From assembly GCA_030148085.1 (NCBI GenBank), contig JASBUF010000067.1, forward strand, positions 1 through 64,000: a stretch of 64,000 bases of DNA, in the 5' to 3' direction. A program made the position numbers and the translations under genes. Under the pieces are notes generated by a model, which was not told the origin of the DNA, searched no databases, and saw only the letters and a program-made list of their open reading frames with translations. Below are positions 7,256 through 26,087 of this stretch, in pieces (position 1 is the stretch's first letter; the number at the start of each line of letters is the position of its first letter). This DNA comes from Methylophaga sp. (GTDB lineage Bacteria; Pseudomonadota; Gammaproteobacteria; Nitrosococcales; Methylophagaceae).

Positions 7256-7380
7256 ACCCGTAACTCATATACCCGTTCCGGCTCTGATAAAGTTCTACTC
7301 AGACCACAGCTTTTTTTAAATAGTCTCTGCTAAAATACACAGTTATTTTGTGCTGTCCCATCAACCCACTCAGGATTCAC

Positions 7381-8226
7381 ATGTCTAGACTGCTTTTCCC
7401 ATGTCTGCTCTTTTCCTCACTGCTGTTGAGCGCTTGTGTTAACCGCGCTCCAGCCACACCGCCGCTGACTCAGACTCAGCTCAATACTTCGCTCACCAAT
7501 AGCGAAATGCGGCTGACAGAAAATCTGGCTCAGCTGTGTCAAACCCTGGAAACTAAGCAAGGCTTCCATAGCGCCCAGTTACAGGATATTGAAAAAAACC
7601 AGCGACAAATGAACAGCAAGCTGGAACACATCGAAGAACAACTTCAGCAGAAATCCGCCCCAAAGGCTGTTGCAGCTGCAAAACCGGCACAGTGTCCATC
7701 TGTAGCGCCCGCTGTACGCACTAACGGCAACATCAATAATCTTGGTGACAAGATGGTGATGGGGCGTCGTGAGTGGATGTGGATTGAAACCATCAATAGT
7801 GTCTTTGAAGCCCGGGTAGATACCGGTGCAACCACCTCATCGATAAGTGCACAGGATATCGTGGACTTTGAAAAAGACGGCAAGCGCTGGGTTCGCTTCC
7901 TGCTGGTTCCTAACGGTGCAGAGAGCCGTTTTGAAGTCGAAGCACCATTAGTTCGCTATGTTCGCATCCTTCAGTCTTCGCAGGAAGGAGGCGAATATGA
8001 TCGCCGTCCCGTTGTGTCTATGACTGTCAAAGTCGGCAACATGATCGAAGAGACCGAGTTCACACTCACTGATCGCAGCCATATGACCTACCCCATTTTG
8101 CTTGGCAGAAGTTTTCTGAAAGATATTGCGGTCGTTGATGTTGCCAAAGATTACATCCAGCCCAAGCCAGCCATTATAGGTACTCCTAAGCAAGCGGTAC
8201 CAACCACAGATGCTGATAAAAAATAA
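7381..8226 (+). CDS. Retropepsin-like (ATP-dependent zinc protease family) lipoprotein
   Basis: Starting at ATG 7381, the 281-residue product has a lipoprotein signal ending LLLSAC, so it is probably an outer-membrane or periplasmic lipoprotein. Residues about 50-90 look coiled-coil (QLQDIEKNQRQMNSKLEHIE). The C-terminal domain carries VDTGATTSS, the D-T-G active-site signature of retropepsin-like aspartic proteases, and ends with PILLGRSFL, typical of that fold. The family is often labelled 'ATP-dependent zinc protease' (RimK/LysX-linked), a name not supported by visible zinc or ATP motifs. It is followed after 11 bases by the transglutaminase-like 7TM gene and then an ATP-grasp ligase, a recurrent three-gene set. 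Confidence 0.85.
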   Translation: MSRLLFPCLLFSSLLLSACVNRAPATPPLTQTQLNTSLTNSEMRLTENLAQLCQTLETKQGFHSAQLQDIEKNQRQMNSKLEHIEEQLQQKSAPKAVAAAKPAQCPSVAPAVRTNGNINNLGDKMVMGRREWMWIETINSVFEARVDTGATTSSISAQDIVDFEKDGKRWVRFLLVPNGAESRFEVEAPLVRYVRILQSSQEGGEYDRRPVVSMTVKVGNMIEETEFTLTDRSHMTYPILLGRSFLKDIAVVDVAKDYIQPKPAIIGTPKQAVPTTDADKK

Positions 8227-8237
8227 AGGAAGACACT

Positions 8238-9746
8238 ATGGCATCGCGCAAACCGTTTTACCTGCTTGTAGGCTTGCTGATTCTCGCCGGCGCCAGTCTC
8301 AGCCTGCATCGTCACTACACCTATGACATCCCTTGGCTGCCCGGCGAAAAACGCCAAACCTGGTCTATCGAAGCTAAGGTAGAGTTTGAGGCCTCAGGTG
8401 GCGAAGTACTGGCTTCGTTGGCTATCCCCAACACCCAGCCGGGCTTTACCCAACTGAATCAACAAACTGCCAGCCCTGGCTATGGTCTGGCATTTACAGA
8501 ACGTAACAACGGTGGTCAACGTGCCGATTGGTCGATTCGCGAAGCCAGCGGTGAACAGGCTTTGTATTATCGTGTTGATATGCTGCTCGACCCTTACGCT
8601 GCGCCGCCCAGCCCAAGTCTGCCTCCGCCTTTAAAAGTCAGTATTGAAAAAGAGCCTTATGCCACCGCTGGCAATCAACTACTGGATCGCGCCCAGGAAC
8701 GTTCGTCTACGCCATATACTCTGGCGCGTGAGTTGATTCAGGAGTTTCAGGTTCAGTCTCAGAATGCCGAGTTGCTCGCTCAGCTTAAACCTCGTCTGAA
8801 CTGGGTGGTGCAACTGCTGCAGCAAGCAGGCGTACCAGCACGACAAGTCCATGCCCTGTTTCTGGAAGATGGTCGTCGTCGCCAGGAACTGATTGATTAT
8901 ATTCAAGTATTCGATGGCGAAGACTACCAGTTATTTCACCCTGAAACCGGTGAACAGGGTCGACCTGAAAATCTCTTGATGTGGGAATACCACTCCGGCC
9001 CGGTGCTGGAAGTCGTTGGTGGCAAACACTCGATGGTGACGTTCTCCATGATCGAGCAGGAGCAACCATTTGGTGTTGCGCTGAACCAGAAGTTTTCTGA
9101 GAATGAATTGCTGAACTTTTCACTCTATACCCTGCCACTTGAAGAACAGGCGCTGTTCAAAGGCATTTTGCTGATTCCGGTTGGTGTACTGGTGGTCGTG
9201 CTGTTGCGGATTCTGGTCGGGGTTAAGACTTCCGGTACTTTTATGCCGGTTTTGATCGCTTTGGCCTTTATTCAGACCAGTCTGATGACCGGGCTGATCG
9301 GCTTTTTGCTGATTGTCGGCATGGGGCTGTTGATTCGCTCTTATCTGTCCTACCTCAACCTGCTACTGGTCGCCCGAATATCCGCGGTCATCATTATGGT
9401 GATAGGCATGATCGCCCTGTTCTCCATCGTTGCCTATAAACTGGGGCTGACTGAAGGCATGAAAGTCACCTTCTTCCCGATGATTATTCTGGCCTGGACC
9501 ATTGAACGTATGTCTATCCTCTGGGAAGAGGAAGGTCCGCATCAGGTAGTGATTCAGGGTGGCGGCTCTTTGATGGTGGCGATTCTGGCTTATCTCGCCA
9601 TGAACAACGAACTGATTCGTCACCTGACATTCAACTTCCTCGGACTGCAGTTGCTGTTTATGGCCTTGGTGCTGATGGCCGGTAACTATACGGGCTATCG
9701 TCTGCTGGAACTGAAACGCTTCAAGCCGATGGTTGAGGAAAAATAA
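8238..9746 (+). CDS. Inactive transglutaminase fused to seven transmembrane helices
   Basis: The 502-residue protein has one N-terminal membrane helix (about residues 7-22), a periplasmic region of roughly 290 residues with the inactive-transglutaminase domain, then a cluster of about seven membrane helices from residue 310. No cysteine occurs anywhere in the protein, so the Cys-His-Asp triad of active transglutaminases cannot exist, matching the family description. A GGAAG ribosome-binding site precedes the ATG. Its stop overlaps the start of the ATP-grasp gene (TAATG). A receptor or scaffold role for a peptide or modified protein is an inference. Confidence 0.85.
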   Translation: MASRKPFYLLVGLLILAGASLSLHRHYTYDIPWLPGEKRQTWSIEAKVEFEASGGEVLASLAIPNTQPGFTQLNQQTASPGYGLAFTERNNGGQRADWSIREASGEQALYYRVDMLLDPYAAPPSPSLPPPLKVSIEKEPYATAGNQLLDRAQERSSTPYTLARELIQEFQVQSQNAELLAQLKPRLNWVVQLLQQAGVPARQVHALFLEDGRRRQELIDYIQVFDGEDYQLFHPETGEQGRPENLLMWEYHSGPVLEVVGGKHSMVTFSMIEQEQPFGVALNQKFSENELLNFSLYTLPLEEQALFKGILLIPVGVLVVVLLRILVGVKTSGTFMPVLIALAFIQTSLMTGLIGFLLIVGMGLLIRSYLSYLNLLLVARISAVIIMVIGMIALFSIVAYKLGLTEGMKVTFFPMIILAWTIERMSILWEEEGPHQVVIQGGGSLMVAILAYLAMNNELIRHLTFNFLGLQLLFMALVLMAGNYTGYRLLELKRFKPMVEEK

Positions 9747-10738
9747 TGAGCGGTCCGCTGTTTAACTGGATCAAAGAAATCCGCGATCGTTACGCGCATC
9801 CGGGTAAGCTGGCGAAAAAAGGCGTGCTCGGTATGAACCGCCGTAATATTTCCTATATCAGCCGCTATAATCCGCGTCATCTGTACCCACTGGTCGATGA
9901 CAAGCTGCAAACCAAACAAATGGTGCTTGAAGCTGGTGTCACCGCGCCGGATCTCATCGGTGTGATTCGTGAACAGCATGAAGTAAAGGATCTGGCCAAG
10001 CTGATCGACGGCGTTCATGGCTTCTGCATCAAACCGGCACATGGTAGTGGCGGCAAAGGCATTCTGGTTATTACCCGCAACGATGATGATGGCTATCACA
10101 AAACCAACGGTCAATTAGCCAATCTGGGTGATTTGGAACGCCACGTTTCCAATATTCTGGCCGGCCTGTTCTCTCTGGGTGGCAAAGCCGATGTGGCCAT
10201 TATTGAAAGTCTGATCGAATTTGATGACTGCTTCACCGGTTACACCTATGAAGGCGTGCCTGATACCCGGGTTATCGTATTCAAGGGCTTCCCGGTGATG
10301 GCAATGATGCGCTTGTCGACCTCCGACTCCAACGGTAAAGCCAATCTGCACCAGGGTGCGGTCGGTGTCGGCCTGGATATTGGCGATGGCTCTGCTTTAC
10401 GTGCCGTGCAGTTCGACCGTCCTGTGCTGTTGCATCCGGATACCGGTACTAACCTTTACACGTTAAAAGTACCGCACTGGGAACAGCTACTGATGCTGTC
10501 TGCCTCCTGTTATGAAATGTCCGGTCTGGGGTATCTGGGTACGGACATGGTACTTGACAGGCAGAAAGGTCCGATGCTGCTTGAACTCAATGCTCGCCCC
10601 GGCCTGAGTATTCAGGTGGCCAATGGCGAAGGGCTGGTGCCTCGTCTGCGCCAAATTGAAGCATTGGGCAATAAGCATAAAATGACGGTAGCACAGCGTG
10701 TCGCTTATGCTCGTGAACATTTCTCGCGTAAGGGCTGA
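9746..10738 (+). CDS. Alpha-L-glutamate ligase-like ATP-grasp protein
   Basis: This 330-residue cytosolic protein shows the ATP-grasp pattern: a glycine-rich loop KPAHGSGGKGILVI near residues 93-106, an acidic strand ending DVAIIESLIEF, DTRVIVFKGFPV, and the metal-binding ELNARPG near residues 275-281. Relatives of RimK ligate amino acids to a carboxylate using ATP. The substrate is not known from sequence. It starts on the stop codon of the membrane gene upstream, so the two are translationally coupled, and the retropepsin-like lipoprotein lies just before them. Confidence 0.86.
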   Translation: MSGPLFNWIKEIRDRYAHPGKLAKKGVLGMNRRNISYISRYNPRHLYPLVDDKLQTKQMVLEAGVTAPDLIGVIREQHEVKDLAKLIDGVHGFCIKPAHGSGGKGILVITRNDDDGYHKTNGQLANLGDLERHVSNILAGLFSLGGKADVAIIESLIEFDDCFTGYTYEGVPDTRVIVFKGFPVMAMMRLSTSDSNGKANLHQGAVGVGLDIGDGSALRAVQFDRPVLLHPDTGTNLYTLKVPHWEQLLMLSASCYEMSGLGYLGTDMVLDRQKGPMLLELNARPGLSIQVANGEGLVPRLRQIEALGNKHKMTVAQRVAYAREHFSRKG

Positions 10739-10780: not shown

Positions 10781-11500
10781 ATGCAGAATACAGGACGTTT
10801 CAATGCCTTGGTGCTTGGTCTGAGTCTATTTCTCGGACTAAGTGTATTAGGCTGGCTGCTGGCGCATGCTGCCATCAGCGTTAAGGAATATGAGCGCACC
10901 GTGACCGTAAAAGGTCTGGCTGAACAGGAGTTTATGGCCGATGTCGTAATCTGGCCGATTGCCTTTACCCTCGCCAATAACAACCTGTCTGTGCTTTATC
11001 AGGAACTTGAAGCCAATACCAAGACGATTACCGCGTTTCTTAGCCAGCATGGCATTGCCGATGATGATATCAGCGTTGCGACACCGGCCATTACCGATAA
11101 ATCTGCCCAACAATACAGCGGCCCATCAGGCGCCGAATTCCGTTACACCGCCATGCAAACCGTCACCGTCTATTCCACGGCTATAGATAAGGTCCGCGAT
11201 GTGATGAACCGCCTGTCCGAACTCGGCCAGCAAGGCATTGTGATTAGCGGTAATAACTATCAGTCACAGACCGAATACCTGTTCACCCGCCTCAATGACG
11301 TCAAACCAGCGATGATAGAAGAAGCCACGCGCAATGCGCGCGGAGTCGCTGACAAGTTTGCTCAGGACTCGGAGAGCAGTCTCGGTAAAATCCGCAAAGC
11401 CACACAGGGTCAGTTCAGTATCAGTCCGCGTGATAACAACAACCCACACATCAAAAAGGTACGGGTGGTATCGACCATCGAATACTATCTGTCGGACTGA
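10781..11500 (+). CDS. SIMPL-domain (DUF541) exported protein
   Basis: A hydrophobic N-terminal segment (about residues 10-30) acts as a signal or anchor. The body has the features of the SIMPL/DUF541 family: an early VTVKGLAEQEF strand, FTLANNN in place of a conserved core strand, and a C-terminal RNARGVADKFAQ helix followed by a strand ending YYLSD. The molecular function of the family is poorly defined; periplasmic or outer-membrane association is usual. It lies 42 bases after the ATP-grasp gene and its stop overlaps the next start (TGATG). Confidence 0.8.
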   Translation: MQNTGRFNALVLGLSLFLGLSVLGWLLAHAAISVKEYERTVTVKGLAEQEFMADVVIWPIAFTLANNNLSVLYQELEANTKTITAFLSQHGIADDDISVATPAITDKSAQQYSGPSGAEFRYTAMQTVTVYSTAIDKVRDVMNRLSELGQQGIVISGNNYQSQTEYLFTRLNDVKPAMIEEATRNARGVADKFAQDSESSLGKIRKATQGQFSISPRDNNNPHIKKVRVVSTIEYYLSD

Positions 11501-12561
11501 TGATCTCGCCTAAGCACGGCATCAAGGGACGGGGTACCGCAGACAATCAGGATAGTCGCTACAGCGAATTTCAGCGTGAAGCGCTGGATGATGGCTGGTT
11601 CAAGAACGAGGATAGCCCGGCACTTCGCACCGAAGTCAGTCTTGAAACTCCGCGGCGCATCATTACCCATAACCAATCACCCGATCTGCCATTCAGTCAG
11701 TCCATTAATGCCTACCAGGGCTGCGAACATGGCTGCCCATATTGCTTTGCCCGCCCGACGCACGCCTACCTCGGCTTATCGCCCGGTCTGGATTTTGAAA
11801 CCAAACTTACCGCCAAACCTGACGCGGCCCGACTACTAAAAAAAGAATTACAGGCAAAAAACTACGTCTGCTCCCCCATTGCTTTAGGCACCAATACCGA
11901 CCCTTATCAGCCTGTTGAGCGACAGTATCAAATCACCCGTGAGATTCTTGAGGTACTGGAACAACACCAGCACCCCTGCACTATCGTTACCAAGTCCGCG
12001 TTAATTGAACGTGATATTGATATTCTCCGCCGACTGGCTGAAAAGCAGCTGGTACAGGTAAACCTGTCGGTGACCACACTCGATAAAACGCTGGCACGCA
12101 AGCTGGAACCGCGGGCCAGCAGCCCACAGCGTCGTCTACAGGCTATCGAAACCTTAAGCGAGGCAGGCATTCCAGTCAGCGTACTCATTGCCCCGGTGAT
12201 TCCGGTGCTAACCGATACCGAACTTGAAGACATCATGCGGGCCTCTGCTGATGCAGGGGCACTATCCGCTGGCTATATTCTGCTGAGACTGCCGCTTGAG
12301 GTTAGCGATTTATTCGAAGACTGGCTACAGACTCATTACCCGGATATGGCTGAACATGTCATGCAGCGTGTTCGTGATTCAAGAGACGGTAAAACCAATG
12401 ATCCACGTTTTGGTCATCGGCTCAGTGGGCATGGCTTTTATGCTGATATGATTCAGCAGCGCTTTCGTATCGCCATGAAAAAGCTGGGGCTCAATCAACG
12501 CAGTCAGCCCCTGAACTGTGCGCTTTTTGATCCTTACCCAGAACAGATGAGTTTGTTTTAA
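11500..12561 (+). CDS. PA0069-family radical SAM protein
   Basis: The 353-residue protein has a radical SAM cluster motif CEHGCPYC (C-x3-C-x2-C) near residue 75, followed by FARPTH, SPGLDFETKL, LGTNTDPYQP and VTTLD, all typical of the PA0069/Rv2578c group related to spore photoproduct lyase. The reaction is not established. The ATG shares bases with the TGA of the SIMPL gene, so the two are probably translated together; whether the functions are linked is unknown. Confidence 0.85.
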   Translation: MISPKHGIKGRGTADNQDSRYSEFQREALDDGWFKNEDSPALRTEVSLETPRRIITHNQSPDLPFSQSINAYQGCEHGCPYCFARPTHAYLGLSPGLDFETKLTAKPDAARLLKKELQAKNYVCSPIALGTNTDPYQPVERQYQITREILEVLEQHQHPCTIVTKSALIERDIDILRRLAEKQLVQVNLSVTTLDKTLARKLEPRASSPQRRLQAIETLSEAGIPVSVLIAPVIPVLTDTELEDIMRASADAGALSAGYILLRLPLEVSDLFEDWLQTHYPDMAEHVMQRVRDSRDGKTNDPRFGHRLSGHGFYADMIQQRFRIAMKKLGLNQRSQPLNCALFDPYPEQMSLF

Positions 12562-21078: not shown

Positions 21079-21660
21079 ATGGCAGAGTATGCCCTCATAC
21101 TGTTAAGCACAATACTGGTGAACAATATCGTCCTGGTTAAATTCCTGGGGCTGTGTCCGTTCATGGGTGTTTCGCGCAAGCTGGAAACGGCTATGGGCAT
21201 GGCGCTCGCCACGACATTTGTGCTGACTTTGTCATCGATCAGCAGTTATCTGATCAATGAATACCTGCTGGCACCATTCGGCATTGAGTTTCTGCGTACC
21301 ATCAGCTTTATCTTTGTGATCGCGGTTGTAGTGCAGTTCACCGAAATGGTCGTGCATAAAACCAGTCCGCTGCTGTATCAGGTTCTGGGTATTTTCCTGC
21401 CGCTGATCACCACTAACTGCGCCGTATTGGGTGTCGCCCTGCTCAATGTGCAGGAGCAACATGGTTTCATCGAATCCGCGCTCTATGGCTTCGGCGCAGC
21501 AATTGGTTTTTCGATGGTACTGGTGATTTTCGCAGGTATGCGTGAAAGACTTGCTGCCGCTGATGTACCTGTTGCCTTTCAGGGTGCTGCTATCGGTTTG
21601 ATTACTGCAGGGTTAATGTCGATGGCCTTTATGGGCTTTGCCGGATTAGTGAAGGTATAA
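21079..21660 (+). CDS. rsxA: Rsx/Rnf electron transport complex subunit A
   Basis: RsxA/RnfA is one of the core membrane subunits of the Rnf complex, which couples electron transfer between ferredoxin and NAD(H) to Na+ or H+ movement; in E. coli the Rsx version reduces SoxR. The 193-residue protein has six membrane helices with family stretches [37 protein letters not shown] and FAGMRERL, including the conserved membrane cysteines that bind iron-sulfur in structures of Rnf. It begins a six-gene operon with near-zero spacing. Confidence 0.96.
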
Positions 21661-25407: not shown

Positions 25408-26087
25408 ACGCATACAAGCAAATCATTATTGATGGCTTATGGAAAAACAATCCGGGCATCGTACAGTTGCTCGGCCTGTGCCCTTTGCTTGCAGTGAGCA
25501 ATACCGTGGTCAATGCTTTGGGACTGGGGCTGGCGACGATCCTGACCTTAGTCGCATCTAATGGCCTGATCTCTTTACTGCGTAATCAGATCCCGGATGA
25601 AGCGCGACTGCCCGTGTTTGTCATGATCATCGCGTCGATTGTGACCATTATCGAACTCTCAATGAATGCCTGGTTTCATGAGCTGTATCTGATTCTGGGT
25701 ATTTTCATTCCGCTGATCGTGACCAACTGCTCGATCATTGGCCGCGCCGAAGCCTTTGCTGCCCGTAACTCGGTAGGCCCCGCCCTGCTCGATGGTCTGA
25801 TGATGGGCCTGGGATTTACCGCTGTACTGATCGTACTTGGTGGTATGCGTGAACTGATTGGTCAGGGTACGCTGTTTTCGCAGGCCCACCTGATGTTTGG
25901 TGAAGCTGCGCGTGGCTTCAGCATTACAGTGATTGAGGACTATCGCGGCTTTCTGATGGCCCTGCTGCCACCCGGTGCCTTTATTGGTCTTGGCTTAATT
26001 GTCGCTTTGAAAAATGTGATTGATAGCCGACTGGCTCGCCGTGAGCCTAAAGTCGCTGTGGTAGAAGCAGAAACAGTCGCAGGCTAA
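25404..26087 (+). CDS. rsxE: Rsx/Rnf electron transport complex subunit E
   Basis: RsxE is a six-helix membrane subunit homologous to RsxA. The 227-residue sequence has [20 protein letters not shown] near the start, [15 protein letters not shown] in the middle and [13 protein letters not shown], all family-typical, including the two membrane cysteines paired with those of RsxA. It closes the rsxABCDGE set and is followed after 15 bases by nth, the same order as in many gammaproteobacteria. Confidence 0.96.

Follow-up and report, generated by a model that had tools for sequence, protein, structure and literature searches.

Positions 1-64,000 of contig JASBUF010000067.1 from Methylophaga sp. 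(assembly GCA_030148085.1), hereafter referred to as the window, contain a three-gene unit encoding a protease, a membrane protein and a ligase, all on the + strand:

7381..8226, + strand: RloA-like retropepsin lipoprotein of 281 amino acids (aa), starting with ATG, with a match to PF05618 (1.7e-42) and the motif VDTGATTSS.
8238..9746, + strand: RloB-like protein of 502 aa (PF14400 and PF14402), with an N-terminal transmembrane (TM) helix, a periplasmic dead transglutaminase (TG) domain and a C-terminal seven-transmembrane (7TM) part.
9746..10738, + strand: RloC-like ATP-grasp ligase of 330 aa (PF14397 and TIGR02291).

The intergenic gaps are 11 bases between the first two genes and -1 base between the last two, and an in-frame TTG for the first open reading frame lies at 7348. 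A scan for promoters and terminators within the three-gene unit found nothing above the level of shuffled sequences.

These genes are almost certainly the Methylophaga rloABC operon, as described in Pseudomonas aeruginosa, where the rlo operon was named in 2025 (mBio 2025, PMC12239564). They combine the A-B-C order with a secreted retropepsin carrying the DTG motif and the polyglutamate-binding arginines, a TG-7TM RloB and a RimK-related ATP-grasp RloC; gene order, the three domain architectures, the protease secretion signal, the catalytic aspartate and the arginines are all common to both organisms. The Methylophaga RloA differs in being a 281-aa lipoprotein whose linker spans about 100 residues, whereas Pseudomonas-type RloA has about 178 aa and no lipobox. 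The Methylophaga genome (assembly about 90% complete) encodes one secreted RloA, its other PF05618 protein being only the RimB of rimBK, compared with three in P. aeruginosa. RloB shares about 35% identity with the Pseudomonas type and about 82-86% with its nearest named Methylophaga relatives. Scores stayed under the curated NCBIfam cut-offs (RloA3, 111 of 210 bits; RloA2, 104 of 250; RloA1, 100 of 280; RloB, 329 of 900), so the locus belongs to the wider operon family, outside these narrow groups. Since the A-B-C order is kept in all 80 named gammaproteobacterial loci, the operon is not a chance assembly. A preliminary description of this DNA, made from its letters and reading frames, had listed the same genes and gaps, a VDTGATTSS lipoprotein, a cysteine-free TG-7TM protein and an ATP-grasp ligase, and the reading frames and domain matches agree with it throughout. 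It had also proposed that the three form one coupled unit and named a lack of co-occurrence as one finding that would count against this; the strict synteny in the 80 loci, natural RloB-RloC fusions described below and the published epistasis in P. aeruginosa (PMC12239564) bear the proposal out. The locus is thus an unexceptional case of a widespread bacterial envelope system that was described only recently, and the new hints as to its function come from its relatives.

Several features could be located in the protease:

7381..7437, + strand: lipoprotein signal with the lipobox LSAC and lipidated Cys19, as predicted from sequence; the residue after the Cys is Val, not Asp.
7438..7755, + strand: E/Q-rich stretch of about 100 residues linking the lipid anchor to the protease (median linker of relatives, 94 residues).
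7819..7821, + strand: catalytic Asp147 of DTG, invariant in RloA alignment A3 and equivalent to D48 of P. aeruginosa RloA.
8005..8007, + strand: Arg209, predicted to bind polyglutamate, equivalent to R114 of P. aeruginosa RloA and invariant (19/19).
8074..8076, + strand: Arg232, likewise a predicted polyglutamate-binding residue, equivalent to R137 and invariant (19/19).

Lipoprotein sorting is governed by the residue following the lipidated Cys (the Lol +2 rule). A recognisable lipobox is present in 74 of 81 RloA relatives, none of which has Asp at +2, so an outer-membrane anchor is predicted, and the Methylophaga RloA is probably a lipoprotein held in the outer membrane. Coiled-coil periodicity in its linker was no better than in shuffled sequences (p 0.2). 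The profile of the RloA family matches crystal structure 9g58 at 4e-62, and RloA structure 9g59 was also matched. The P. aeruginosa RloA is a secreted retropepsin that cuts runs of at least 8 glutamates and needs R114 and R137, mutants of which are impaired; a lipoprotein form of RloA goes unmentioned in that work (PMC12239564).

The membrane protein RloB matches PF14400 (9e-52) and PF14402 (9e-108); its main features are as follows:

8349..9071, + strand: periplasmic dead transglutaminase-like domain, residues about 38-278, with structural matches to 3isr and TgpA (6g4h) and the triad lost.
9234..9266, + strand: half-helix motif G333-x3-P337-x3-A341, where the membrane core begins; G333 and P337 are invariant and A341 nearly so (alignment A1), the helix is broken in the model, and the motif also occurs in CapC.
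9477..9509, + strand: second motif P414-x8-E423-R424, invariant in alignment A1; a similar P-x7-[DQ]-R occurs in single-domain CapC.

The window RloB has no cysteines and has lost the Cys-His-Asp triad, which excludes catalysis by its TG domain. In the AlphaFold2 model (predicted local distance difference test score, pLDDT, 89) this domain has the fold of the TgpA-type periplasmic transglutaminase (6g4h, Z 6.6) and of the putative cysteine protease 3isr (Z 14.3, root-mean-square deviation (rmsd) 4.2, 218 residues aligned), from which it differs in the lost triad. The top structural match of the membrane part is the RNF subunit 8ahx_A (Z 8.4, rmsd 3.4, 126 aligned). Searching the RloB profile against solved structures gave nothing significant, nor did profile comparison link RloB to Rnf/Nqr.

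RloC matches PF14397 (4e-96) and TIGR02291 (3e-139; 463 bits, cut-off 314). By profile, its closest solved relatives are RimK, other glutamate ligases, cyanophycin synthase and tubulin polyglutamylases. RimK crystals show a polyglutamate chain in which E2-E4 contact S68, S7, R8, R64 and S14, and E5 contacts N262 and R189 (PMC10092738). All of these residues are present in the RimK of the Methylophaga genome itself. RloC retains the pair at the ligation end, as R175 and N282 (equivalent to RimK R189 and N262; kept in 25/25), while S7, R8, S14, R64 and S68 have no counterpart in the window RloC, the chain-holding N-terminal domain being missing. This absence leaves room for RloB, and natural RloB-RloC fusions place RloB at exactly this end of RloC. 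The RimB/RimK pair resembles the rlo genes in that a PF05618 protease adjoins a RimK-like ATP-grasp ligase with the same ligation-end residues; it differs in that RimB has no signal peptide, RimK has the N-terminal domain and RloB is absent. The window genes, with a lipobox in the protease and no N-terminal chain-holding residues in the ligase, fall outside that group. An overlapping rimB-rimK pair lies apart from the rlo operon in the same genome (L003:533-1947, - strand), and in L224 and L225 the cytosolic pair is naturally fused, RimB and RimK forming a single open frame of 472-495 aa.

Of 299 genomes sampled from the phylum, 48 carry PF14402, each in a single copy. The state of the TG domain was tabulated for 122 RloB proteins, comprising 113 with a dead domain, 7 with a live one and 2 without it. 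The TG domain is the part of RloB most reshaped between lineages. An intact Cys-His-Asp triad occurs only in L046-L050, from one small class of the phylum, and in L164 and L165, from a putative alphaproteobacterial family. RloA adjoins RloB in 111 of the 113 dead-TG cases, but in none of the seven live-TG and neither of the two TG-less ones. One of the two dead-TG exceptions stands at a contig edge; in the other (L025) a secreted RloA is encoded elsewhere in the genome (L222), much like the unlinked RloA2 and RloA3 of P. aeruginosa, bringing the count with secreted RloA to 112 of 113. Genome-wide searches of the nine live-TG and TG-less genomes found no secreted RloA, only RimB-like PF05618 proteins lacking a signal or no PF05618 protein at all. 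In this sample, a live TG domain and a secreted RloA are mutually exclusive. The gene arrangements of these relatives are:

L164:4583-7060, + strand: live-TG RloB-RloC fusion followed by a TPR-like and a barrel-like protein; no secreted RloA in the genome.
L165:4823-7324, - strand: the same fusion and followers; no secreted RloA in the genome.
L046:4016-10426, also L047-L050: live-TG RloB, RloC and a TPR protein as one unit, with a barrel-like protein where the contig extends.
L044:5155-7922 and L045:4963-7958: TG-less RloB with a barrel-like protein upstream (aromatic C-terminal residue) and RloC downstream.

The fused RloB-RloC proteins of L164 and L165 have 825-833 aa. In the live-TG loci a TPR protein with an N-terminal TM segment is followed, contig permitting, by a barrel-like protein of about 370-400 aa, and both are homologous across the two live-TG groups (barrel, 25% identity, 3e-14; TPR, 6e-16). 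The predicted barrel gave no Pfam match above cut-off and was assigned from its length, C-terminus and signal peptide. Exopolymer exporters such as AlgK/AlgE, PgaA and BcsC usually have a TPR protein and a barrel as their outer-membrane component; a comparable pair adjoins RloB-RloC in the live-TG relatives and is absent from the Methylophaga window. A small PepSY-like membrane gene lies upstream of the live-TG unit in L046 and L048.

CapC/PgsC is the membrane protein of poly-gamma-glutamate synthesis, which works with PgsB, a Mur-ligase-like synthetase and not an ATP-grasp enzyme like RloC. In the predicted models the helices of RloB (313-327, 335-347, 349-372, 377-401, 412-432 and 434-455) and CapC (14-33, 41-49, 53-76, 82-103, 117-134 and 136-158; pLDDT 80) are alike in order and lengths. 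Rnf/Nqr membrane subunits are among the best structural matches of both, those of CapC including NqrD (8evu_D, Z 6.0) and RnfE (7zc6_E, Z 5.5). The families also have in common the half-helix motif and an acid or amide followed by Arg after the second Pro: the pattern G-x3-P-x3-A ... P-x7/8-[EDQ]-R, defined after viewing both families, occurs in 129 of 136 RloB and all 4 single-domain CapC proteins, and in none of 128 other membrane proteins. PgsC lacks a TG domain, and PF14102 is absent from RloB, with no match in 31 RloB proteins at E up to 10, which refutes membership of RloB in the CapC family. Sequence gave no proof of homology between CapC and the RloB 7TM part: comparisons with growing hhalign profiles stayed non-significant and L081, an unrelated large membrane protein, outscored CapC, so that their kinship is a suspicion at fold level only. 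On these models a common fold is likely; a common origin is unproven. A sequence search for a solved relative of PgsC found none. The Bacillus subtilis PgsC sequence used is presumably correct, given its PF14102 score of 137 bits; it was excluded from structure prediction. Proteins of about 790-1090 aa with two tandem CapC domains were also observed (L059:8486-11725, also L060, L061, L062, L209-L213 and L220); their neighbours in L059 and L060 are a large sensor-like protein and one of 820 aa that belongs to no known family, joined in L059 by a response-regulator gene.

The most economical reading, held here with middling confidence, has RloC building a poly-alpha-glutamate-type chain at RloB, RloB exporting this chain and RloA trimming it. 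The steps are suggested, not proven, by the relatives. RloC, docked on the cytosolic end of RloB, would use ATP to join L-glutamate into the chain, and the 7TM part of RloB would pass the growing chain through the inner membrane. The dead TG domain may hold or guide it in the periplasm, where RloA would cut chains of about eight or more glutamates and so prevent a long polyanion from building up outside the inner membrane; such an accumulation would be harmful in low salt. P. aeruginosa lacking all three RloA proteases does not grow without salt, and removal of rloB or rloC rescues it completely (PMC12239564), as expected if RloB and RloC make or deliver a harmful substrate. Besides this rescue, the conserved polyglutamate-binding arginines, the RloB-RloC fusion and the barrel partners fit the reading. 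The preliminary description had supposed that a cytosolic ligase makes a peptide, which is plausible, and that the 7TM protein binds it through the dead TG domain, which is possible, though the comparison points beyond binding, to a role of the 7TM part in membrane passage. Its placing of the protease outside the cell agrees with the secretion of RloA, the published cleavage of glutamate runs and the presence here of the arginines required. Its statement that no reaction is settled still holds for RloB and RloC, but is outdated for RloA, whose polyglutamate cleavage was published in 2025 (PMC12239564).

Several points weigh against this reading. The literature found reports no measured product of RloC and no measured transport by RloB, and the annotation of PF14397 as associated with sugar transfer allows a different product. 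The profile comparison of RloB with CapC by hhalign is non-significant (P about 0.01-0.03 for the membrane part); the best value, 3e-4, came from a single full-length-profile comparison, and a decoy scored higher. The motif common to them was drawn up post hoc, and Z values of 5.5-8.4 between helical bundles can reflect a common arrangement. Finally, the live-TG RloBs form one clade in the membrane-domain tree, so the link between live TG and missing RloA may rest on a single event. A broader and more doubtful proposal is that RloB-RloC could form the core of an unrecognised class of Gram-negative machines that export polyglutamate-type chains and whose membrane part is akin in fold to PgsC/CapC. 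The chain would remain periplasmic in most lineages, where trimming by RloA would replace a TG activity that died in RloB, while in the live-TG lineage RloB-RloC, sometimes fused, would feed a TPR protein and barrel secreting the polymer.

The best surviving alternative, though an unlikely one, is a periplasmic counterpart of RimK/RimB tagging, in which a protein or peptide is exported after its polyglutamylation by RloC, RloB assisting in export or docking, and loses its tail to RloA outside. RimK tags RpsF and RimB cuts the tail, the Methylophaga genome carries both the rim and the rlo systems, and in P. aeruginosa no encoded envelope protein with eight glutamates accounts for the RloA substrates (PMC12239564). 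However, RloC is cytosolic and any protein it tagged would need to pass through the membrane, the loci contain no conserved third gene for a substrate, and the RloB-RloC fusion favours direct coupling.

Next in probability, and rather improbable, is decoration of the wall or an envelope polymer, whereby RloC and RloB add glutamates to a peptidoglycan precursor or another lipid-linked carrier and RloA trims the branch. The sugar-transfer annotation of PF14397 agrees with this, as does the altered cell shape and beta-lactam sensitivity of P. aeruginosa on loss of the RloA proteases, together with the shorter, more ampicillin-sensitive cells of its rloB and rloC single mutants (PMC12239564). These phenotypes can nevertheless be secondary to a periplasmic polyanion, and no wall-synthesis gene travels with the operon among the loci examined. 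The overproduction of membrane vesicles by Shewanella mutated in a 7TM gene with an inactive transglutaminase (PMC12096838) has also been counted for decoration, but it fits chain export by RloB or any of the rivals.

There is only a small chance that RloB is instead a receptor whose dead TG domain binds RloA-trimmed peptides and signals inward to RloC, with no export. Dead TG domains can have a binding role, which has been proposed in polymorphic toxins, and the strong reshaping of this domain between lineages would suit a receptor; yet TG-less RloB keeps RloC downstream in L044 and L045, making the sensor part dispensable, and the live-TG version accompanies predicted outer-membrane export genes. 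That three unrelated genes merely have a transcript in common is refuted by their order in 80/80 loci, the RloB-RloC fusion and the published epistasis (PMC12239564), and no point supporting this highly improbable view was found.

In P. aeruginosa the rlo operon bears on osmotic survival, biofilm, cell shape and tolerance of antibiotics; its conservation extends across the Gammaproteobacteria. The operon and RloA cleavage were already known (PMC12239564); what its relatives newly provide is the exclusion between live TG and secreted RloA, the fusions, the TPR and barrel partners, the comparison of RloC and RimK residues and the RloB/CapC helix match. The fusion, the partners, the exchange of live TG and RloA and the missing RimK domain lead to one testable proposal, a ligase-driven polyglutamate exporter with a trimming protease. 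If it is true, Gram-negative bacteria would number poly-alpha-glutamate among their periplasmic polymers.

Downstream of the operon lie a SIMPL-domain gene (10781-11500, + strand) and a radical SAM gene of the PA0069 family (11500-12561, + strand), and among the named set a SIMPL gene is found near the rlo operon only in Methylophaga loci. The window also contains rnfA- and rnfE-type genes (PF02508) of the RNF complex at 21094-21648 and 25413-26000 (both + strand), their presence being coincidental to the closest fold likeness of the RloB membrane domain.

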